64,000 nt of DNA from Streptomyces sp. NBC_01478. Its GTDB lineage: Bacteria > Actinomycetota > Actinomycetes > Streptomycetales > Streptomycetaceae. The stretch lies in contig NZ_CP109444.1 of NCBI RefSeq assembly GCF_036227225.1, positions 7,917,501-7,981,500 of the forward strand, in the 5' to 3' direction. This document shows, piece after piece, positions 29,843-38,011 of this stretch. A model generated the notes under the pieces. It had not been told where the DNA came from. It saw nothing but the letters and a program-made list of their open reading frames with translations, and made no database searches. A program made the translations under genes and the position numbers. Positions within the stretch are counted from its first letter, which is position 1. Each line of letters opens with the position of its first letter.

Positions 29843-30757
29843 ATGGATATCGGGGACGACACGGACTCCCTCGACGAGGCGACGAACGTGTTCATGGCGG
29901 CGCGTCCCCAGCTCTTCGGCATCGCCTACCGCGTGCTCGGCAGTGCCACGGAGGCCGAGGACGTACTACAGGAGGCGTGGCTGCGGTGGCAGCACACCGA
30001 CCGTGACGTGGTCCGCGAGCCCAAGGCGTTCCTCGCCACCGTCACCGCCCGGCTGGCGCTCAACGTCGCCCAGTCCGCCCGGGTCCGCCGCGAGTCGTAC
30101 ATCGGGCCCTGGCTGCCGGAGCCGGTCGACACGCGCGCGGATCCGCAGTTGGGCGCCGAGCGGGCCGAGGCGCTCGACACGGCGGTGCTCCTCCTGCTGG
30201 AGCGGCTCAACCCCGTGGAGCGGGCGGCCTATGTGCTGCGGGAGGCCTTCGACTACCCCTACGGGCAGATCGCGGACATGCTGGAGACCAGCGAGACCAA
30301 CACGCGCCAGTTGGTGAGCCGCGCGCGCAAGCACCTCGCGTCGGAGCGCCGCAAGCCCGTCGACGCCACCGAGCACCGACGGCTGATGGAGGTGTTCCTC
30401 ACCGCGGCACAGACCGGCGATCTGGCCGTGCTCGAAGGCATCCTCGCCCAGGACGTGGTCAGCTACACCGACGGGAACGGACTGCGCGGGGCGTCCAGGT
30501 TCCCGGTCGTCGGCCTGGTGCACGTCTCCCGGTACCTGGCCGCGTTCGCGCCGCGCTTCTGGCCGGGCAAGGAGATCCACTGGGTCGAGGCCAACGGCGG
30601 CCCGGCCGCCCTCGTCACGGCCGAGGGGACGCCGGTGGTGCTGCTGACCCTCGACATCTCGGAGCGCGGCATCGAGCGGGCCATGTGGGTCATGAACCCG
30701 GAGAAACTGGCCCCCTACGTGGCCTCCCTGGACGGCGGCGGCACGCCCTCCTCCTGA
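29843..30757 (+). CDS. ECF41-type (SigJ-like) RNA polymerase sigma factor
   Basis: 304 residues. Region sigma-2 (FGIAYRVLGSATEAEDVLQE) comes first, then sigma-4 (LNPVERAAYVLREAFDYPYG), then a SnoaL-like C-terminal domain. The linker motif WLPEP is present. The C-terminal motifs read DGNGL and NPEKL where the group has DGGGK and NPDKL. In ECF41 proteins this tail tunes activity and replaces an anti-sigma factor. ATG 29843 follows GAAGGCGG. Five genes downstream have a TGTCACA-N16-GGTC start region close to the known ECF41 promoter, so this is their probable regulator. Its own upstream region lacks the motif. Confidence 0.9.
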   Translation: MDIGDDTDSLDEATNVFMAARPQLFGIAYRVLGSATEAEDVLQEAWLRWQHTDRDVVREPKAFLATVTARLALNVAQSARVRRESYIGPWLPEPVDTRADPQLGAERAEALDTAVLLLLERLNPVERAAYVLREAFDYPYGQIADMLETSETNTRQLVSRARKHLASERRKPVDATEHRRLMEVFLTAAQTGDLAVLEGILAQDVVSYTDGNGLRGASRFPVVGLVHVSRYLAAFAPRFWPGKEIHWVEANGGPAALVTAEGTPVVLLTLDISERGIERAMWVMNPEKLAPYVASLDGGGTPSS

Positions 30758-30771
30758 GCGCCTCCCCGAGC

Positions 30772-30798
30772 TGTCACAGATCGCGGGGCCACCCGGTC
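30772..30798 (+). promoter_or_regulatory. ECF41-type promoter of the flavoprotein
   Basis: TGTCACA at 30772-30778 and GGTC at 30795-30798 are separated by 16 bases. It lies 36 bases before the GTG start. The same spacing occurs at four other sites in the island. Confidence 0.75.
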
Positions 30799-30833
30799 GT
30801 ACTGGACGAAGACCCCAGTGATCGGAGTGGACC

Positions 30834-32564
30834 GTGGCTGTCACCGAACAACGTCTCGCCACCATGGTGCTGGTGATCGGCACCGGAGGGGCCGGCCTGC
30901 GGGCGGCGATCGAACTGGCCGAGGCCGGCGTCGACGTCCTCGCCGTCGGCAAGCGCCCCAAGGACGACGCCCATACGGCACTGGCGGCCGGCGGCATCAA
31001 CGCGGCACTGGCCACCATGGACCCCGAGGACAGTTGGCAGCAGCACGCCGCCGACACCCTCAAGGAGAGCTACCTCCTCGCCGATCCGCGCACCGTGGAG
31101 ATCGTCACCCGGGGCGCCGCCCGCGGCATCGAGGACCTGGAGCGCTACGGCATGGCCTTCGCCCGCGAGGAGGACGGCCGCATCTCGCAGCGCTTCTTCG
31201 GCGCGCACACGTTCCGCAGGACCGCCTTCGCCGGCGACTACACCGGCCTGGAGATCCAGCGCACCCTCGTCCGGCGCGCCGAGCAACTGGACATCCCGGT
31301 GCTGGAGGGGGTGTACATCACGCGGCTGCTGGTGCACGAGGGTGCCGTGTTCGGCGCGTACGGCTTCGACCTCACGAGCGGACGGCGCTACGTCATCCAC
31401 GCCGACGCGGTCGTCCTGGCCGCCGGCGGTCACACCCGCATCTGGCGGCGCACCTCCTCGCGGCGCGACGAGAACACCGGGGACTCCTTCCGCCTGGCCG
31501 TGGAGGCCGGGGCCCGGCTGCGCGACGCCGAGCTGGTGCAGTTCCACCCCTCCGGCATCATCGAACCGGAGAGCGCCGCCGGCACCCTGGTCAGCGAGGC
31601 CGCCCGCGGCGAGGGCGGCATCCTGCGCAACGCGCTCGGGGAACGCTTCATGGCCCGCTACGACCCCGAGCGCATGGAGCTCTCCACCCGCGACCGCGTG
31701 GCCCTGGCCGCGTACACGGAGATCAAGGAAGGGCGCGGCACGCCCGCCGGCGGGGTCTGGCTCGACGTCTCCCACCTGCCCCGGCAGACGATCATGACGC
31801 GGCTGCCCCGTGTCCACCAGACCCTGATGGACCTGCAGATGCTGGACATCACCCGGGATCCGATCGAGATCGCGCCCACCGCGCACTACTCGATGGGCGG
31901 TGTGTGGGTGCGCCCTGAGGACCACAGCACCGACGTACGCGGCCTGTACGCGATCGGCGAGGCGTCGAGCGGGCTGCACGGAGCCAACCGGCTCGGCGGC
32001 AACAGCCTCGTCGAACTGCTGGTGTTCGGCCGTCTCACCGGCCGGGCCGCCGCGGCGTACTCGCAGTCCCTGACGGCCCAGCCGCGCTCCGCGTCGGCCG
32101 TCGCGGCGGCCCGCGCGGAGCTCGACGGACTCCTCGCCGCCGACGGGCCCGAGAACGTGCGAGCCCTGCAACGCGCGATCCGCGACACCATGACCGAGCA
32201 CGCGGGCGTCGTACGCGACGAGGACGGACTGCGCGCGGGCCTCGCGGAACTCGCGGTGATCGAGAAGCGCATGGAGGCCGTCGGCATCCACCCGGACATC
32301 GCGGGCTATCAGGATCTGGCGCACGCCCTCGACCTCAAGTCGGCGGCCCTCGCGGCCCGGGCCACTCTCGAATCGGCGCTGGAGCGCCGTGAGACGCGGG
32401 GCTGCCACAACCGCAGCGATTATCCCGGCCTGGATTCCGCACTGCGGGTGAATCTCGTGTGGTCCCCGACGACGGGCGTCACCCGCGAGGACATTCCGGC
32501 GGTCCCCGACGAGATCTCCGCCCTGATGCGGGACGTGTCGACCGCGGGAAAACTCGTCGAATAG
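30834..32564 (+). CDS. Fumarate reductase/succinate dehydrogenase-type flavoprotein
   Basis: 576 residues. FAD-binding start VIGTGGAGLRAAIELAEAG, and AHTALAAGGINAAL with the histidine to which SdhA/FrdA enzymes bind FAD covalently. Active-site region QFHPSG, later HYSMGGV and GLHGANRLGGNSL, then the C-terminal helical domain. L-aspartate oxidase is a close relative but usually lacks that histidine. GTG 30834 follows GGAG. No iron-sulfur or membrane subunit is next to it, so electrons probably go to or from another carrier. It has an ECF41-type promoter just behind the sigma factor gene. Confidence 0.85.
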   Translation: MAVTEQRLATMVLVIGTGGAGLRAAIELAEAGVDVLAVGKRPKDDAHTALAAGGINAALATMDPEDSWQQHAADTLKESYLLADPRTVEIVTRGAARGIEDLERYGMAFAREEDGRISQRFFGAHTFRRTAFAGDYTGLEIQRTLVRRAEQLDIPVLEGVYITRLLVHEGAVFGAYGFDLTSGRRYVIHADAVVLAAGGHTRIWRRTSSRRDENTGDSFRLAVEAGARLRDAELVQFHPSGIIEPESAAGTLVSEAARGEGGILRNALGERFMARYDPERMELSTRDRVALAAYTEIKEGRGTPAGGVWLDVSHLPRQTIMTRLPRVHQTLMDLQMLDITRDPIEIAPTAHYSMGGVWVRPEDHSTDVRGLYAIGEASSGLHGANRLGGNSLVELLVFGRLTGRAAAAYSQSLTAQPRSASAVAAARAELDGLLAADGPENVRALQRAIRDTMTEHAGVVRDEDGLRAGLAELAVIEKRMEAVGIHPDIAGYQDLAHALDLKSAALAARATLESALERRETRGCHNRSDYPGLDSALRVNLVWSPTTGVTREDIPAVPDEISALMRDVSTAGKLVE

Positions 32565-32567
32565 CCA

Positions 32568-32603
32568 CTGTCATAGGCACTGTCGCAGGCGCTGTCACAA
32601 ACA
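32568..32603. repeat. Three tandem 12-bp copies containing the -35 element
   Basis: CTGTCATAGGCA, CTGTCGCAGGCG and CTGTCACAAACA follow one another with a 12-base period; the third holds the TGTCACA -35 element. The copies begin right after the flavoprotein stop. They may be extra sigma or repressor contacts, or slippage. Confidence 0.55.
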
Positions 32604-32619
32604 AAGCCGGTGCCCGGTC
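32593..32619 (+). promoter_or_regulatory. ECF41-type promoter of the NmrA-like gene
   Basis: TGTCACA at 32593-32599, 16 bases, GGTC at 32616-32619, 47 bases before the ATG. Confidence 0.75.
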
Positions 32620-32666
32620 ACTACTGATACAGGCAGGCATCAGGCAAACCCGAAAGGAATTCCGTC

Positions 32667-33413
32667 ATGAAGGTCGTAGTGATCGGTGGCACCGGGCTCA
32701 TCGGCTCGAAGGTGGTCGCCGGGCTCGGCGAGCACGGGCACGAGGTGGTCGCGGCGGCACCCAGCACCGGTGTCGACACGCTGACGGGCGAGGGACTGGC
32801 CGAGGTCCTGAAGGGCGCGTCGGTGGTGGTCGACGTGTCGAACTCGCCCTCGTTCGAGGACCAGGCGGTCATGGACTTCTTCCGCGTCTCGACGGCGAAT
32901 CTGCTGAAGGCGGAGACCGAGGCGGGCGTCGCGCATCACGTGGCGCTGTCCGTGGTCGGTACCGAACGCCTCCAGGGGAGCGGGTACTTCCGCGCCAAGC
33001 AGGCCCAGGAAGACCTGATCAAGGCGTCCGGCAACCCCTACTCCATCGTCCACGCCACCCAGTTCTTCGAGTTCGCGAAGGGACTCGCCGACGGGGTCAC
33101 CCAGGGCGACACCGTGCACCTGCCCGACGCGAAGATCCAGCCCATCGTCTCCGACGACGTGGCCGAGGCCGTCGCCCGCACGGCGGTCGGGGACCCGGTG
33201 GGCGGCGTGGTGGAGGTCGCCGGTCCCGAGGCGTTCCCGCTGGAGGAGTTCATCCGCATGGGACTCAGCGCCCAGGACGACCCCCGCAAGATCGTCACGG
33301 ACCCGCAGGCGACGTACTGGGGTGCGGAGTTGGAGGAGAACACACTCCTGCCGGGTCCGGACGCACACATCGCCGGGACACGGTTCGCCGACTGGCTCTC
33401 GCGGCAGAAGTAG
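32667..33413 (+). CDS. NmrA-like NAD(P)-binding protein (atypical SDR)
   Basis: 248 residues with an N-terminal Rossmann fold (VVVIGGTGLIGSKVVAGL), then DVSNSPSFED, HHVALSVVGTERLQ and YFRAKQAQEDLIK. This type includes sensors of NADP state and NADP-dependent reductases or isomerases of unknown substrate. A Tyr-x-x-x-Lys pair is not in the classical place (YFRAK has the right spacing and could serve). AAAGGAA before the ATG fixes the start. It has its own ECF41-type promoter, so it belongs to the island's redox set. A strong terminator follows. Confidence 0.82.
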   Translation: MKVVVIGGTGLIGSKVVAGLGEHGHEVVAAAPSTGVDTLTGEGLAEVLKGASVVVDVSNSPSFEDQAVMDFFRVSTANLLKAETEAGVAHHVALSVVGTERLQGSGYFRAKQAQEDLIKASGNPYSIVHATQFFEFAKGLADGVTQGDTVHLPDAKIQPIVSDDVAEAVARTAVGDPVGGVVEVAGPEAFPLEEFIRMGLSAQDDPRKIVTDPQATYWGAELEENTLLPGPDAHIAGTRFADWLSRQK

Positions 33414-33435
33414 CGCTCGGCTGAGACCGTCGGTT

Positions 33436-33469
33436 CCGGGTGGCCCTTTCCTCCGAAAGGGCCACCCGG
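33436..33469. terminator. Perfect 15-bp hairpin between convergent genes
   Basis: CCGGGTGGCCCTTTC pairs exactly with 33455-33469 around a four-base loop. It lies between the NmrA-like gene and the converging nitroreductase remnant and would stop both transcripts. Confidence 0.8.
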
Positions 33470-33515
33470 GCTGTTGGGGAGACAGTTCGCCGGACCGGCG
33501 GCGATCGCGGTACTG

Positions 33516-34109
33516 GCACTCGACGAACGTGACCGTCTCGTCGAGCGGGGCCCTGCCCGTGCGGGGGTGGTCGACCGTGACGTCCTCGTATCCGATCGAC
33601 ATGCCGCAGAAGAGCGTGAGCTCGTCCGGGGGCGACAGGATCTCCGCCACGCTCCTGCGGAACTTCGCCCAGGCCATCTGCGGGTAGCTGTGCAGCCCTT
33701 CGTCGCGCAGCAACAGCATGACGGTCTGCAGGAACATGCAGGTGTCGGACCACTGGGCCGGCCCCGGATCGCGGTCGACGCAGCAGAACAGGGCGGTGGG
33801 CGCGCCGAAACAGTCCCGGTTCGCGGACGCGGCCAGCCGGCGTGCCTCCACGTCCTCGCGCGGGATGCCGAGTGCGCCGTAGCGCTGCTCGCCGAAGGCG
33901 GACCGGCGCTCGCGGTACGGGGATTTCAGCGCGGGCGGGTACTGCTCGTACTCCGGCTCGTCCCAGGGGTCACCCCGCGGCTGGATGTTCGATCCGGACG
34001 GCGCCCGGGCCGCGGCGGACAGCACACGCTCCATCACCTCCCTCGGGACCTCCCGGTCGGTGAGTCCGCGCACCGCCCGCCGGCTCGTGACCGCCTCATA
34101 GACGTCCAA
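33516..34109 (-). pseudogene. Nitroreductase with internal deletion and no natural stop
   Basis: TTG 34109 follows GGGAGAAGAG and opens a nitroreductase-family frame: VTSRRAVRGLTDREV, APSGSNIQP, GDPWDEPEYEQYPPALKSPY, MLLLRDEGL and LFCGMSIGYED. NIQP joins GDPW directly at 33974-33979; family members I recall have about 28 residues between, so an in-frame deletion is likely. After VTFVEC, where homologs end, no stop follows and the frame runs on to 32640 across the terminator and antisense to the NmrA-like gene. It lies behind the cytochrome b gene, in its operon. Probably inactive. Confidence 0.65.
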
Positions 34110-34176
34110 GGTCGCTCTTCTCCCTGTCTCCCTGTCTCCCCGATTCCCCAATTGCCCGTCCGCTCGACGGGCCTGG

Positions 34177-35766
34177 TCACCGGTGCACTTCTGTGGCCGG
34201 TATTTCCTTTTCCTCGAATTCCCGTGCCGTCGGTTTGGTGATCTGCGCGTTCTCGCCGTAGAGGCGCTCGCTGAGCCGGGCGCGCAGATTCCGGGTGCCG
34301 GGGGCGATCGGGCGGTACTGCTCGTGCTGGGTGAGGAGATGGAGCTGTTCCTGGTCGAGGGGCTCGTGCAGTTCGACGAACTCTCCGTCGGGCAGGCGTT
34401 TGATGATGCCGGTCTCGCGTCCGTGGAGCACTTTTTCGCGGTCGCCGCGCTGAAGTCCGAGTGCCCATCGTTTCGTCACGGAGTACGCCGCGACGGGCAC
34501 GACGAACAGACCGATGCGGACGGCCCACGTCACCGACTCGACCGGGACATGGAAGCGGACGGCGATGATGTCGTTCCCGGCGCCGATCAGGGCCACCGCG
34601 TAGAAACTGAGCCAGGAGACGCCAAGTGCCGTGCGCACCGGCCGATTTCGGGGTCGGTCCAGCAGGTTCTGCTCGCGTGCGTCCCGGGTCACCCAGGACT
34701 CGATGAACGGATACACGCCCAGGGCGAGGAAGAAGCCGACACCCGCGGTGAGCGGAATCAGGTTGTCGAGCGCCAGGGTGTGACCCCAGAAGGTGATCTC
34801 CCAGCCCGGCATCACCCGCAGCAGCCCGTCCGCCACGCCCATGTACCAGTCGGGCTGCGACCCGGCCGAGACCTGGTCGGCACGGTAAGGCCCGTACTGC
34901 CAGACGGGGTTGATCTGCGCGATCGCGGCGACGACGAAGACGGTGCCGGTCACCAGCAGGAAATACCCGGCGGACTTGACCGCACGTACCTTGGCCGGCA
35001 CGCCCACGACATTGCCGTTGGTGCGGCCACGGCCCGGGTACTGGGTGTGCCCGTGGTGGAGCACCAGGGCCAGATGCGCGGTCACGAGTGCCACCATGAG
35101 GGCGGGGATGAGCAGCACATGGATGGTGTTGAAGCGCGCCACCAGGTCATGGCCCGGGAACTCGCCCCCGAAGAGGAACATCGACAGATACGTTCCGACG
35201 ATGGGGACGGACAGGATCGTTCCGTTCACGACGGCGAGGCCGGTCCCGGAGAGCAGATCGTCCGGGAGGTCGTATCCCGTCAGTCCCGCGAACATGGCGA
35301 GGACCAACAGCAGGAATCCGAACAGCCAGTTGACCTCGCGCGGCTTGCGGAAGGCGCCCGTGAAGAACACCCGCATCATGTGCGCGAGCAGGGAGGCCAC
35401 GAAGACCAGCGCCGCCCAGTGGTGGGCCTGCCGGATCAGCAGACCGCCGCGCACGTCGAAGGAAATGCGCAGGGTCGACGCGAACGCCTCCGACATCATC
35501 TGGCCGCGCAGCGGTACGTAACTGCCGTCGTACCGCACCTCGTTCATCGAGGGATGGAAGTAGAAGGTCAGATACACGCCCGTGACGACGAGAACGACGA
35601 AGCTGTAGAGGCAGATCTCCCCGAGCAGGAACGACCAGTGGTCCGGAAAGACGCGTCGCGTTTTTCCGCGGATCAGGCGGCGGACACCCAGCCGTCCGTC
35701 GGCCCAGTCGGCCACCCTTTCGCCCTTTGTCCGTACGGCCTGTTCGTCCCCTCCGAGATCCTGCAT
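34177..35766 (-). CDS. Stand-alone cytochrome b subunit (QcrB-like)
   Basis: 529 residues, membrane-bound, normally the quinol-oxidising subunit of the actinobacterial bc1-aa3 complex. Helix pairs carry the haem histidines in RQAHHWAALVFVASLLAHM and in FNTIHVLL with TAHLALVLHHGHTQ. The quinol-site motif reads QPDWYMG. A charged C-terminal extension follows the helices. No qcrC or qcrA lies beside it, so this is a paralogue of the housekeeping gene. ATG 35766 is preceded by GGGG; a GTG two codons earlier is the alternative. Its promoter is of the ECF41 type, divergent from the truncated sigma gene. Confidence 0.88.
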   Translation of the reverse strand: MQDLGGDEQAVRTKGERVADWADGRLGVRRLIRGKTRRVFPDHWSFLLGEICLYSFVVLVVTGVYLTFYFHPSMNEVRYDGSYVPLRGQMMSEAFASTLRISFDVRGGLLIRQAHHWAALVFVASLLAHMMRVFFTGAFRKPREVNWLFGFLLLVLAMFAGLTGYDLPDDLLSGTGLAVVNGTILSVPIVGTYLSMFLFGGEFPGHDLVARFNTIHVLLIPALMVALVTAHLALVLHHGHTQYPGRGRTNGNVVGVPAKVRAVKSAGYFLLVTGTVFVVAAIAQINPVWQYGPYRADQVSAGSQPDWYMGVADGLLRVMPGWEITFWGHTLALDNLIPLTAGVGFFLALGVYPFIESWVTRDAREQNLLDRPRNRPVRTALGVSWLSFYAVALIGAGNDIIAVRFHVPVESVTWAVRIGLFVVPVAAYSVTKRWALGLQRGDREKVLHGRETGIIKRLPDGEFVELHEPLDQEQLHLLTQHEQYRPIAPGTRNLRARLSERLYGENAQITKPTAREFEEKEIPATEVHR

Positions 35767-35817
35767 GGTCACCCCGTTCGACGGTCAAGGGAAAGCGCGA
35801 TGCTGCCCTGCCTTTAA

Positions 35818-35844
35818 GACCGGGGGACCGCCGCATGTGTGACA
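35818..35844 (-). promoter_or_regulatory. ECF41-type promoter of the cytochrome b gene
   Basis: On the minus strand, TGTCACA (35844-35838), 16 bases, GGTC (35821-35818), 51 bases before ATG 35766. It is back to back with the next promoter; together the -35 parts form the inverted repeat TGTGACACG/CGTGTCACA. Confidence 0.75.
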
Positions 35845-35863
35845 CGCGGTCGCCGCGCACCCG

Positions 35864-35890
35864 TGTCACAGGGGCAGGGGGTTCCCGGTC
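35864..35890 (+). promoter_or_regulatory. ECF41-type promoter of the truncated sigma gene
   Basis: TGTCACA at 35864-35870, 16 bases, GGTC at 35887-35890. Only eight bases separate GGTC from ATG 35899, so the transcript would begin at or next to the start codon (leaderless). Confidence 0.72.
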
Positions 35891-35898
35891 TTCGGGGT

Positions 35899-36657
35899 AT
35901 GGACGAGGGCGCCGCGGTACCGATCGCCGAGCCGTGGGAAGAGCGTCGGTTCCTGCTCGATGTCGCCCACCGGATGCTGGGCGACCCGGGTGCGGCCGAG
36001 CGCGTCGTCGACGAGACCTATCAGCGCTGGTACGGCCTGTCCGACGCCGCGCGCCGACGGATCGCCGTCCCCCGGTCCTGGCTGGCGGAGACGGTCGGCG
36101 GGATCTGCTCGGGCCGGGGCGAGGCGGCGTACGGACAGCCGTCGGAGGCGGGGGAGGAGGCGGGGGAGGAGGCCGGCCGGACCGTACTGGACGCGCTGCG
36201 GTCGCGGCGCACCCGCGCGACAGCGCCGCACCGGCACGACGGCGTCGTCCGCGCCGTGTGCCGGGCCTGCGTCACCGAGGACGGCGAGCTGCTCACATCG
36301 CTGCTGTGCCCGGACGTCACGGCGTTCTTCGACGGCGGCGGCAAGGTACGCGCCCCGACCGGACCGGTGCACGGCAGCCGGCCGGTCGCCGACAGCCTGC
36401 TGACGCTCCTGCCCCGCCGCCCGCACACGACCCTGACCACCCACTCCGTCAACGGCCGCACCGGCCTCGTCGCCCGCTACGGCCACCAGGTCGCCGCCGT
36501 CATCAGCCTCGACGTCGCGCACGACCGGGTCGCCCGGTTCTGGGTCGTGCTCAACCCCGACAAACTCCGCTCCTGGAACCGGCCCCGCGCCGCGGTCACG
36601 CCGTGCTCCCCTCCTTCGTCCGGCCGGCCTCCGGGTCCTGGGTGCGCCCGTTCGTGA
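35899..36657 (+). CDS. Truncated ECF41-like protein: sigma-2 trace plus SnoaL tail
   Basis: 252 residues. The N-terminus resembles ECF sigma-2 (FLLDVAHRMLGDPGAAERVV). The sigma-4 helix-turn-helix and the WLPEP linker are missing, replaced by a short Glu-rich stretch (GEEAGEEAGR). The C-terminal SnoaL-like domain keeps the group motifs DGGGK and NPDKL better than the full-length sigma factor of this island. It cannot bind a -35 element in the usual way, so it may hold RNA polymerase, dampen the sigma factor, or be decaying. The last 62 bases overlap the convergent NADH dehydrogenase gene. The promoter implies a leaderless ATG at 35899. Confidence 0.65.
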   Translation: MDEGAAVPIAEPWEERRFLLDVAHRMLGDPGAAERVVDETYQRWYGLSDAARRRIAVPRSWLAETVGGICSGRGEAAYGQPSEAGEEAGEEAGRTVLDALRSRRTRATAPHRHDGVVRAVCRACVTEDGELLTSLLCPDVTAFFDGGGKVRAPTGPVHGSRPVADSLLTLLPRRPHTTLTTHSVNGRTGLVARYGHQVAAVISLDVAHDRVARFWVVLNPDKLRSWNRPRAAVTPCSPPSSGRPPGPGCARS

Positions 36658-37951
36658 CGAAGGCGTCCCGCGGATGCTGCACGGAGGCAAGGGAGACGAG
36701 GTCCCGGCCCGTCAGGGCCGCCGTGAGCCAGACCGCCAGGACGCGGATCTTCCGCTCCCAGCTGGGCACCGCCAGTACGTGGTAGCCGCGGTGCATCAGC
36801 CAGGCCGGGAAGCCCTTGATGACGATGCCCTTGTACTGGAAGATGCCCCGCCCGAGCCCCAGCGTCGCCACCACGCCCAGGCTGCCGTGGCGGTAGTCCC
36901 GCACGCGCCGCCCGCGCAGATCGGCCACGAGGTTCCTGGCGAGGAGCCTGCCCTGTCGTACGGCGTGCTGGGCGTTCGGCACCGTGCGGGCGCCCGGTAC
37001 CGGCGAGGCCAGGTCGGGCACGGTCGCGTCGTCCCCGGCCGCCCACACGTCCGGCACCGGTGCGCTGTCCGTGCCCACGCGCAGATCGGGCCGGACCAGC
37101 AGCAGGCCGCGCTCGTCGACCGGCAGGTCCGTGTGGTTGTGCACGACCGGGTTCGAGGCGTTGCCGGCGGCCCAGACGATCAGCGTGGAGTCGTACTCCT
37201 GGCCGTCGGAGAGGACGACGTGGCCGTCCTCGGCGGACAGCAACTGTGTGTTCAGGTGGACGTGCGCGCCACGGCGTTCCAGGTGGCGCACCACCCACGC
37301 ACCCGGCCTGTCGCTCACCTCGGGCAGGATGCGGCCGCGGGCCTCGACGAGGTGGAACGACAGGTCGTCCAGGGCCAGTTCGGGATAGGACTTGAGCATC
37401 GCGGTCGCCAGCGACAGCAGTTCGCCGAAGCCCTCGACGCCGGAGAACCCGCCTCCGACGAACGTGACGGTGAGCAGCTTTCGCCGCTCGGGGCCGGGCG
37501 GCAGCGACGCGGCCTGGTCGAACGCGGTCATCAGCCGGTCCCGGATCGCCACGGCCTCCTCCACGTGCTTGAGACCGATGGCCCGCTGCGCGAGTCCGGG
37601 GATCGGGAAGGTACGGGTCACGGCACCGGCGGTGACCACGAGGATGTCGTAGCGCAGCTCATAGGCGTCGCCGCGCACCGGGCGGACGGTCACCGTACGG
37701 TCCGCGTCACGGATCTCGGTCACGGTCCCCGCGATCAGCCGGGTACGGCCGAGATGGCGCCGCAGCGAGACGACGGCGTGCCGTGCCTCCACCGAACCGG
37801 CCGCCACCTCCGGCAGGAACGGCTGATAGGTCATGTACGGGCGCGGGTCGACGACCGTGACCCGCGCCTCACCCGGACGCAGCCTCTTCTGCAGACCCCA
37901 TGCGGTGTAGAAGCCCGCGTAGCCGCCGCCGACGATCAGAATCTGTCGCAT
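36596..37951 (-). CDS. Type II NADH dehydrogenase (NDH-2)
   Basis: A 451-residue single-subunit flavoprotein passing electrons from NADH to quinone without pumping protons. FAD site ILIVGGGYAGFYTAWGLQ, NADH site VTFVGGGFSGVEGFGEL, then VWAAGNASNP and PDVWAAGDDATVPD, with an amphipathic C-terminal part (GIVIKGFPAWLMHRGYH) that docks on the membrane. AGAGGGAATC just before ATG 37951 decides the start. With the cytochrome b gene it gives the island both an entry and a possible exit for quinol electrons. ECF41-type promoter upstream. Confidence 0.88.
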   Translation of the reverse strand: MRQILIVGGGYAGFYTAWGLQKRLRPGEARVTVVDPRPYMTYQPFLPEVAAGSVEARHAVVSLRRHLGRTRLIAGTVTEIRDADRTVTVRPVRGDAYELRYDILVVTAGAVTRTFPIPGLAQRAIGLKHVEEAVAIRDRLMTAFDQAASLPPGPERRKLLTVTFVGGGFSGVEGFGELLSLATAMLKSYPELALDDLSFHLVEARGRILPEVSDRPGAWVVRHLERRGAHVHLNTQLLSAEDGHVVLSDGQEYDSTLIVWAAGNASNPVVHNHTDLPVDERGLLLVRPDLRVGTDSAPVPDVWAAGDDATVPDLASPVPGARTVPNAQHAVRQGRLLARNLVADLRGRRVRDYRHGSLGVVATLGLGRGIFQYKGIVIKGFPAWLMHRGYHVLAVPSWERKIRVLAVWLTAALTGRDLVSLASVQHPRDAFVTNGRTQDPEAGRTKEGSTA

Positions 37952-37984
37952 GATTCCCTCTGCTTCGTTGTCCGTCACCAGGTG

Positions 37985-38011
37985 GACCGAGCAGCGGGGG
38001 CCGATGTGACA
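37985..38011 (-). promoter_or_regulatory. ECF41-type promoter of the NDH-2 gene
   Basis: On the minus strand, TGTCACA (38011-38005), 16 bases, GGTC (37988-37985), 33 bases before ATG 37951. It is the fifth site of the set. Confidence 0.75.

Follow-up and report, generated by a model that had tools for sequence, protein, structure and literature searches.

A small part of the chromosome of Streptomyces sp. NBC_01478 raises a simple question: does one ECF41 sigma factor control a whole set of respiratory genes through promoters of the same kind? The window, i.e. the whole stretch of 64,000 nucleotides which we have analysed (C1:7917501-7981500), contains a full-length ECF41 gene and five promoter-like sites TGTCACA-N16-GGTC. 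They precede genes for a fumarate reductase-type flavoprotein (FrdA-like), an NmrA-like protein, a QcrB-type cytochrome b, a degenerate ECF41 (DEG) and a type II NADH dehydrogenase-like protein (NDH-2). A previous sequence-only reading had taken this region as a self-contained module under one sigma factor. We find good support for a predicted redox and respiratory regulon of Streptomycetaceae with a shifted -10 element, which we consider very probable. A single sigma factor with five promoters is rejected, on account of a second cluster and of the tree of sigma factors: besides a degenerate paralogue, as many as three sub-clades of ECF41 (A, B and C) belong to the system. Nor is a self-contained module supported, as the second cluster in the same genome is larger and relatives carry up to 25 GGTC sites.

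All five sites are present at the positions and on the strands proposed for them (Table 1), with a spacer of exactly 16 bases in each. The exact form TGTCACA-N16-SGTC (S is C or G) appears 5 times in the window, while 0.12 are expected, and none of 100 shuffles reaches 5. When two mismatches are allowed there is no enrichment, with 13 matches in the window and 19.9 expected; thus the signal resides in the exact sites. The motif is not equally frequent by chance throughout the host genome, a single contig of 12,124,816 bases: we have found 19 SGTC sites, as compared with 2 for the reversed control. Fourteen of the 19 have the GGTC form: 5 are in the window, 8 in a 26-kb cluster (C1:11351577-11377892) and 1 is a stray site. 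The base 5' of GGTC is C in all 13 clustered sites and G in the stray one. The two clusters are 3.4 Mb apart and are partly duplicated.

The form of the promoter was studied in 75 loci selected by the DEG protein and not by the motif, so that their motif content is not circular. They come from a profile scan of contigs from the best 80 of 232 relatives and belong to 66 assemblies by record-name count, titled Streptomyces with the exception of one Streptacidiphilus and two Actinacidiphila. These loci have 512 distinct TGTCACA words. At a distance of 16 bases they are followed by GGTC (316), TGTC (61), CGTC (8) or AGTC (3); spacings of 13-15 and 17-18 give only 0-4 per count. In all there are 522 occurrences of TGTCACA, against 50-126 for four scrambled words. 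TGTC is also found 47 times at spacing 11, apparently as a recurring spacer word (CTGTCCGGTC) just 5' of CGGTC.

A set of 225 distinct sites from 34 genomes, partly taken from loci chosen by the motif (L020, L021, L077-L082 and L086 included), shows the same features in finer detail. C is found 5' of GGTC in 173 of 192 sites and 5' of TGTC in 31 of 33. A/T is favoured past GTC and there is a purine peak 10-11 nt past it; the spacer and the 5' flank are mostly low in information. The median distance from the site to the chosen start codon is 58 nt, with at least 4 of the 5 bases of GGAGG 5' of the start in 168 of 221 cases. Loci L097-L116 were taken at TCGTC sites and served solely as examples of canonical ECF41. 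Canonical sites that recur among the genomes have TG(T/C)CTCGTC at the corresponding position; the change is thus from TC to C(G/T) just 5' of GTC. The -10 does differ from the published CGTC (PMC3426412), and in fuller form the difference is CGGTC against TCGTC. As compared with the ECF41 target promoter TGTCACA-N16-CGTC, the -35 element and the spacing agree and the -10 element does not.

In the genome-wide protein searches at most 8 or 9 candidates were scored per genome and the best matches listed. Among these matches, 38 of 295 Streptomyces genomes have a DEG with an identity of 50% or more. The gene set and the GGTC sites do recur in related Streptomyces genomes, a conservation that the sequence-only reading had left to be checked. 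The 38 DEG-positive genomes have on average 12.8 TGTCACA-N16-GGTC sites (median 13), the 257 others 1.63 (median 1; Mann-Whitney p 2.8e-21). The CGTC form is similar in both groups, with 4.0 sites per genome in the DEG-positive group and 3.4 in the others, of which 42 were compared. At least 8 GGTC sites are present in 26 of the 38 DEG-positive genomes and in 3 of the 257 others. A search across the order (245 genomes) placed every match of about 390 bits or more within Streptomyces, among the matches listed; of 18 genomes from other genera, 17 have ordinary ECF41 scores only and 1 has none. One Streptomyces plasmid record has a 57.8% match. The site counts of genomes G074, G263 and G268 look like chance; that of G074 is inflated by tandem 30-base repeats (G074:C6:518811-518957), each with a TGTCACA-N16-GGTC match.

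The target genes were picked with a simple open reading frame score of our own and named by similarity. Among the 34 genomes, a site is found before DEG in 26, NmrA in 23, FrdA-like in 19, WhiB in 17, full ECF41 in 15, NDH-2 and QcrB in 12 each, a small protein without Pfam match in 9 and ferredoxin in 8, besides others. The 66 named assemblies, which overlap in genomes with the previous set, give DEG 51, NmrA 30, WhiB 28, ECF41 and FrdA-like 26 each, NDH-2 24 and QcrB 21; less frequent are CMD, OsmC and rubredoxin-reductase-like proteins (10 each), YceI and methyltransferase (8 each) and ferredoxin (6), while for 47 of 383 sites the target falls in no named family. DEG is over-represented in these figures, as loci L057-L076, L083-L085, L087-L096 and L117-L191 are DEG hits. 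When the families are followed in 23 loci (the motif-chosen L020 and L021 among them), the site is present in 11/11 NDH-2, 8/8 QcrB, 14/16 NmrA, 11/13 FrdA-like, 18/24 DEG and 9/27 full ECF41. From what is known of these families, the target set points to electron rerouting and to thiol and peroxide control.

Some less common targets were named by eye. The small protein without Pfam match (L071:8934-9323 and relatives) has about 100-130 amino acids and is coiled-coil-like; the site is present in 4/4 members, and it appears in 9 and 12 genomes of the two target sets. Two sites precede genes similar to pyruvate dehydrogenase E1 (L142:1347-4046 and L083:14477-17164). Single sites are found before a flavohaemoglobin-like gene (L189:13013-14224), a SigR-like sigma (L180:968-1579) and a 6-phosphogluconate dehydrogenase-like gene (L179:16968-18407); these three fit the redox theme.

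Which sigma factors may read these sites? The full-length gene at 29843 does code for an ECF41 sigma of the SigJ type (TIGR02957, 337.3 bits, cut-off 323.25; NF007214, 272.6 bits, cut-off 271), with the sigma2 and sigma4 parts, the WLPEP linker and a C-terminal extension in which DGNG and NPEKL replace the DGGG/NPDK type. No GGTC site was found 5' of this gene. In a tree of 113 ECF41-like proteins (midpoint root) 17 A, 23 B and 10 C sigmas are united, together with a single additional row, in one clade (100/99). Canonical ECF41 form their own clade with 16 rows (100/100), and three more rows taken as canonical are placed elsewhere. DEG is a third clade of 41 rows with a stem of 1.24 (100/100). 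Six rows of unclear place were excluded from residue and motif counts. Region 2.4 is the part of a sigma factor that reads the -10 element. There the regulon sigmas have N74 (49/50) and Q77 (47/50), as opposed to D74 and R77 in 16/16 canonical proteins; at position 76, sub-clades A and B always have A, sub-clade C has V, L or I, and the canonical proteins have L. The predicted shift of the -10 from TCGTC to CGGTC goes with D74N and R77Q, and with L76A in A and B.

Sub-clades A and B have kept the linker, with WLPEP in 17/17 A and 22/23 B, while an exact NPDKL is found in 1/17 A and 0/23 B. The ratio of nonsynonymous to synonymous differences (pN/pS) shows the linker as their most constrained part (0.18 and 0.15) and the C-terminus as the least (0.38 and 0.41). 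A strict site lies near the start of 12/22 B and 1/17 A genes. Sigma C is different: the 10 proteins examined all stop shortly past the first part of the extension and have no SnoaL-like domain, nor is there any SnoaL-like remnant better than E 0.3 downstream of the 10 genes. Their linker is WLPE in 8/10, with SLPE and WLPD in the other two. The exact motif is found 5' of none of the 10. Among the matches listed, sigma C (E up to 1e-80) is represented in 18 of 295 genomes, each of them one of the 38 DEG-positive genomes (Fisher 1.3e-18); the truncation was verified in 9 of the 18 genomes and in genome G104.

DEG is the mirror image of sigma C, with the linker lost and the C-terminus retained, whereas sigma C has mostly retained the linker and lost the SnoaL-like domain. 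The 41 DEG, the window copy included, have WLPEP in 0/41, NPDKL in 41/41 and DGGG in 39/41. Residues D40, Q43 and W46, each present in 65/66 sigmas, are found in 7, 0 and 0 of the 41 DEG; R70, R82, R83 and R155 are mostly replaced, R155 mostly by A. DEG thus lacks both the core and promoter-contact residues and the WLPEP of an ECF41 sigma, and even when intact it is probably already unfit to act as a sigma factor. One DEG was scanned against Pfam: it gave Sigma70_r4_2, Sigma70_r2 and a sub-threshold PhyR_sigma-like match (22.4 bits, cut-off 27), and no receiver domain. Median pN/pS values, from up to 106 pairs, are 0.40 in sigma2, 1.11 in the linker (gappy, 91 pairs), 0.40 in sigma4 (99 pairs) and 0.345 in the C-terminus. 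This pattern, with purifying selection on the C-terminus, indicates that DEG is being maintained while its linker has been freed. Near the start of 28/41 DEG there is a strict site.

The second cluster (loci L020 and L021) is a related copy of the window set. The DNA shared by both includes a stretch of 1058 bases with NmrA, the NmrA site and the end of the FrdA-like gene (98.8% identity), one of 1418 bases with NDH-2 and the site before it (98.4%), QcrB (91.7% over 1804 bases) and the nitroreductase (88.8% over 490 bases). The second cluster also encodes an intact DEG, a full sub-clade B ECF41 with its own site, a sub-clade C ECF41 without SnoaL-like domain, two cupins and more. Relative to these copies the nitroreductase and the DEG of the window have deletions. 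The window DEG had been described as a truncated ECF41; it is truncated, but it is a deletion derivative of the separate DEG clade and not a plain ECF41. We also considered whether this truncated protein is the typical form, and rejected it, as both sigma-like parts are present in most relatives. Its ATG lies 8 nt past the -10, while in relatives the start-like purine peak is 10-11 nt past GGTC, so its leader is suspiciously short. Its sigma2 part is changing faster, with pN/pS about 0.48 against L021, whereas L021 against L057 gives about 0.10. From the position of the ATG and the lack of sigma4, the functional copy is probably that of the second cluster. L021 also contains, near NDH-2, a gene (L021:7050-7529) for a protein of 159-220 amino acids in this and related loci, present in 12/23 loci and never with its own site.

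How might these parts work together? A link between NPDKL in the ECF41 extension and the YVGPWLPEP linker has been published (PMC7730460), and passages in PMC8999054 describe the extension as inhibitory through that linker. As the two halves are found here on separate proteins, we propose a regulator which acts in trans, with feedback. The window would be one of two clusters of the regulon. An ECF41 sub-clade (A in the window, B and C in the second cluster) would bring RNA polymerase to TGTCACA-N15-C(G/T)GTC. The genes served would be those of electron transfer (NDH-2, QcrB, FrdA-like, ferredoxin and rubredoxin-reductase-like), of redox sensing and thiol/peroxide control (WhiB, OsmC and CMD) and the NmrA partner. 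DEG, mostly behind such a site, would retain the SnoaL-like sensor although it is probably no longer a sigma. Through its NPDKL domain DEG would target, in trans, the WLPEP linker of the regulon sigmas, that of sigma C in particular, and hold these sigmas off until a signal alters it. Being made from the promoter of the sigmas themselves, it would provide negative feedback. Complementary motif losses, co-occurrence and the promoter speak for this putative anti-sigma role. The motif and its conservation, the phylogeny, the losses and the pattern of selection have been observed; the assignment of sigmas to sites, the binding of DEG, inhibition as opposed to help, the signal and the physiology are inferences. 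Taken as a whole, the two-cluster regulon with A, B and C sigmas and inhibition in trans by DEG with feedback would be the best explanation, and we regard it as reasonably probable. Regulation in trans by DEG, judged as a separate claim, comes a little short of probable. More tentative is the evolutionary scheme in which a lock fused within one sigma was split: the dead sigma DEG would be the NPDKL-bearing, SnoaL-like key for a WLPEP lock on other proteins, namely on sigma C, which has no SnoaL-like domain, and on A and B, so that a one-protein switch became a two-protein sensor and anti-sigma with feedback over a large respiratory regulon.

Several observations weigh against this proposal. 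Sigmas A and B retain their own C-terminal domain, and 3/10 sigma C have kept L76. The window DEG is damaged, so that the window system must depend on the second cluster. The frequency of DEG among the targets is inflated, the loci having been fetched around it. The role of the SnoaL domain is itself disputed: according to passages in PMC7730460 its whole deletion abolishes activity, and in SigJ the domain may not be an antagonist. Genome G164 has a DEG match and no GGTC site at all. The three DEG-negative genomes with at least 8 sites are G104 and G152, in which CGGTC sites are clustered, and G148, with a few cluster-like ones; in the first two no DEG of 50% identity is detected, so a strict requirement for DEG is rejected. 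G104 even carries a divergent C-clade sigma, outside the E 1e-80 cut.

DEG might also be merely a target of the regulon, an NTF2/SnoaL-like binding protein or enzyme in which the sigma-like domains are an old scaffold without regulatory role. Its place behind a regulon site (28/41 strict) and the strong constraint on its C-terminus (0.345) would agree with this; still, purifying selection also acts on sigma2 and sigma4 (0.40 each), sigma C matches (E up to 1e-80) are confined to DEG genomes (18/18 among the matches listed) and the losses of linker and NPDKL are complementary in the two proteins. We find such a passive role rather unlikely. The complementary losses are equally compatible with help, DEG being a positive partner, a co-sigma or chaperone, which for example lends its SnoaL-like domain so that sigma C can fold or associate with core polymerase. 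When the whole extension is missing, Ecf41 variants lose activity (PMC3426412), so a partner domain could help. However, sigma C retains the first part of the extension, which by itself was enough to make Ecf41Bli-204 and Ecf41Rsp-206 20- to 120-fold more active (PMC3426412), and a gene behind the sigma's own promoter would better suit feedback; a positive role seems to us unlikely. Finally, a different sigma might recognise the CGGTC sites, or a different regulator might bind there, with ECF41 genes as mere neighbours. The -10 does depart from the published ECF41 consensus, and sigma and site are linked here through sequence comparison, but the -35 TGTCACA is reported to be ECF41-specific (PMC3426412), the site stands 5' of 12/22 sigma B genes, and the fixed spacing and A/T preference past GTC are promoter-like. 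This we hold to be very improbable. Chance, or copies of one duplicated block, was rejected as an explanation of the whole and has next to no probability: parts of the two host clusters are indeed 98-99% identical DNA, but in the 225 distinct sites of 34 genomes most of the spacer and of the 5' flank is poor in information, and chance is excluded by the shuffles, the reversed control and the scrambled words.

The predicted regulon shares with known ECF41 systems (SigJ, Ecf41Bli and Ecf41Rsp; passages in PMC3426412) the sigma2/sigma4 parts, the WLPEP linker, the SnoaL-like extension, the TGTCACA -35 with N16 and a partner gene of epimerase/oxidoreductase type, here NmrA. It differs from them by its -10, C(G/T)GTC instead of CGTC, by many targets, predicted from the motif, where a single one is reported to be the general case, and by the coexistence of the three sub-clades A, B and C, the last of which is without SnoaL-like domain. 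The words cytochrome, fumarate and NADH dehydrogenase do not appear in the main text of that paper. A wider role of ECF41 would not be unprecedented, as an Azospirillum ECF41 factor that controls motility is cited in PMC8999054. In the ECF56 system SigG1-RsfG of S. tsukubaensis (PMC7730460) a SnoaL-type sigma also has a separate protein regulator, and the SigG1 targets include wblC; however, no conserved Pfam domain is present in RsfG, which is no degenerate sigma either, and SigG1 has no NPDKL. DEG also recalls PhyR-type mimicry (PMC8999054), in which a sigma-like protein that does not initiate transcription controls a real sigma. PhyR differs by its receiver domain and by the anti-sigma to which it binds; the additional domain of DEG is SnoaL-like, and we have seen no anti-sigma of the NepR kind. 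In the open-access literature, judged by titles and the openings of abstracts, we recognised nothing which describes the regulon, the promoter variant or the DEG clade.

ECF41 is a large and widespread ECF group, and some 13 sites per genome (up to 25) contrast with the view of a single target. The shift in the -10 with a few residues of region 2.4 would be a natural switch of specificity which can be tested, and respiratory and redox remodelling becomes a candidate physiological role for ECF41. Because sigma C and DEG have lost opposite parts, it can be tested directly how a SnoaL-type lock works and how a regulator of a sigma may originate from a sigma. If the proposal is true, sigma C would be the natural counterpart of the hyperactive truncated forms engineered in the laboratory. 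A comparison may also be made with the split sigma SigO-RsoA of Bacillus, in which one sigma function is spread over two proteins: there it is the promoter-binding regions that are split, whereas here it is apparently the regulatory contact.

Table 1. Genes and promoter-like sites of the window
Feature	Position	Strand	Remarks
ECF41 sigma factor, sub-clade A (SigJ/TIGR02957 type)	29843..30757	+	N74-A76-Q77 in region 2.4; linker GPWLPEP; C-terminus DGNG...NPEKL
Promoter-like site TGTCACA-N15-CGGTC, before FrdA-like gene	30772..30798	+	
Stand-alone fumarate reductase/succinate dehydrogenase-type flavoprotein, 576 aa	30834..32564	+	FAD_binding_2/Succ_DH_flav_C
Promoter-like site before NmrA	32593..32619	+	all 27 bases identical in second cluster
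NmrA-like NAD(P)-binding protein, 248 aa (NAD_binding_10)	32667..33413	+	
Nitroreductase-family gene remnant	33474..34112 (approximate ends)	-	internal deletion relative to L021:2240-2983; without own site
QcrB-type cytochrome b, without QcrA/QcrC neighbours	34177..35772	-	bc1-type; NF050120, 728 bits (cut-off 500)
Promoter-like site before qcrB	35818..35844	-	
Promoter-like site before degenerate ECF41, divergent from qcrB site	35864..35890	+	
DEG deletion derivative	35899..36657	+	lacks linker and sigma4; retains C-terminal DGGGK...NPDKLRSWN; ATG 8 nt past -10
Type II NADH dehydrogenase-like protein (Pyr_redox_2)	36596..37951	-	
Promoter-like site before NDH-2-like gene	37985..38011	-	site and gene 98.4% identical in second cluster

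The gene identities first given to the products downstream of the five sites have held: FAD_binding_2/Succ_DH_flav_C, NmrA-like, QcrB, an ECF41 remnant and Pyr_redox_2. The distance to the start codon, first given as 8 to 51 bases, hinges on the start which is chosen; for NDH-2 it is 6 nt to the GTG at 37978, or about 33 nt if the ATG at 37951 is taken. An alignment of the FrdA-like protein with SdhA of 7d6v extends across the flavin and substrate motifs. QcrB aligns with actinobacterial QcrB across most of its length. QcrB-like genes are found at six places in the host genome: in the window, in the second cluster (95%), at two places with 65% and 61%, and as an identical-scoring pair near both ends (57%).

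Five of the six SGTC sites outside the clusters were inspected by eye, with the first 120 residues of each gene. One lies in a terminal repeat and one at 3458960; near the others no redox cluster was seen. An identical 27-base TGTCACA-N16-CGTC site is found near both chromosome ends (G000:C1:187393, in L026, and 11937391, in L019), probably as part of terminal inverted repeats. In L026 it precedes a canonical ECF41 gene which adjoins a second ECF41-like gene. A further TGTCACA-N16-CGTC site (G000:C1:3458960; L023:2461) lies about 50 bases 5' of a nadA-like gene, named by eye. Closely similar 27-mers occur in genomes G018, G242 and G247, so this site looks conserved, but it may belong to another regulator.

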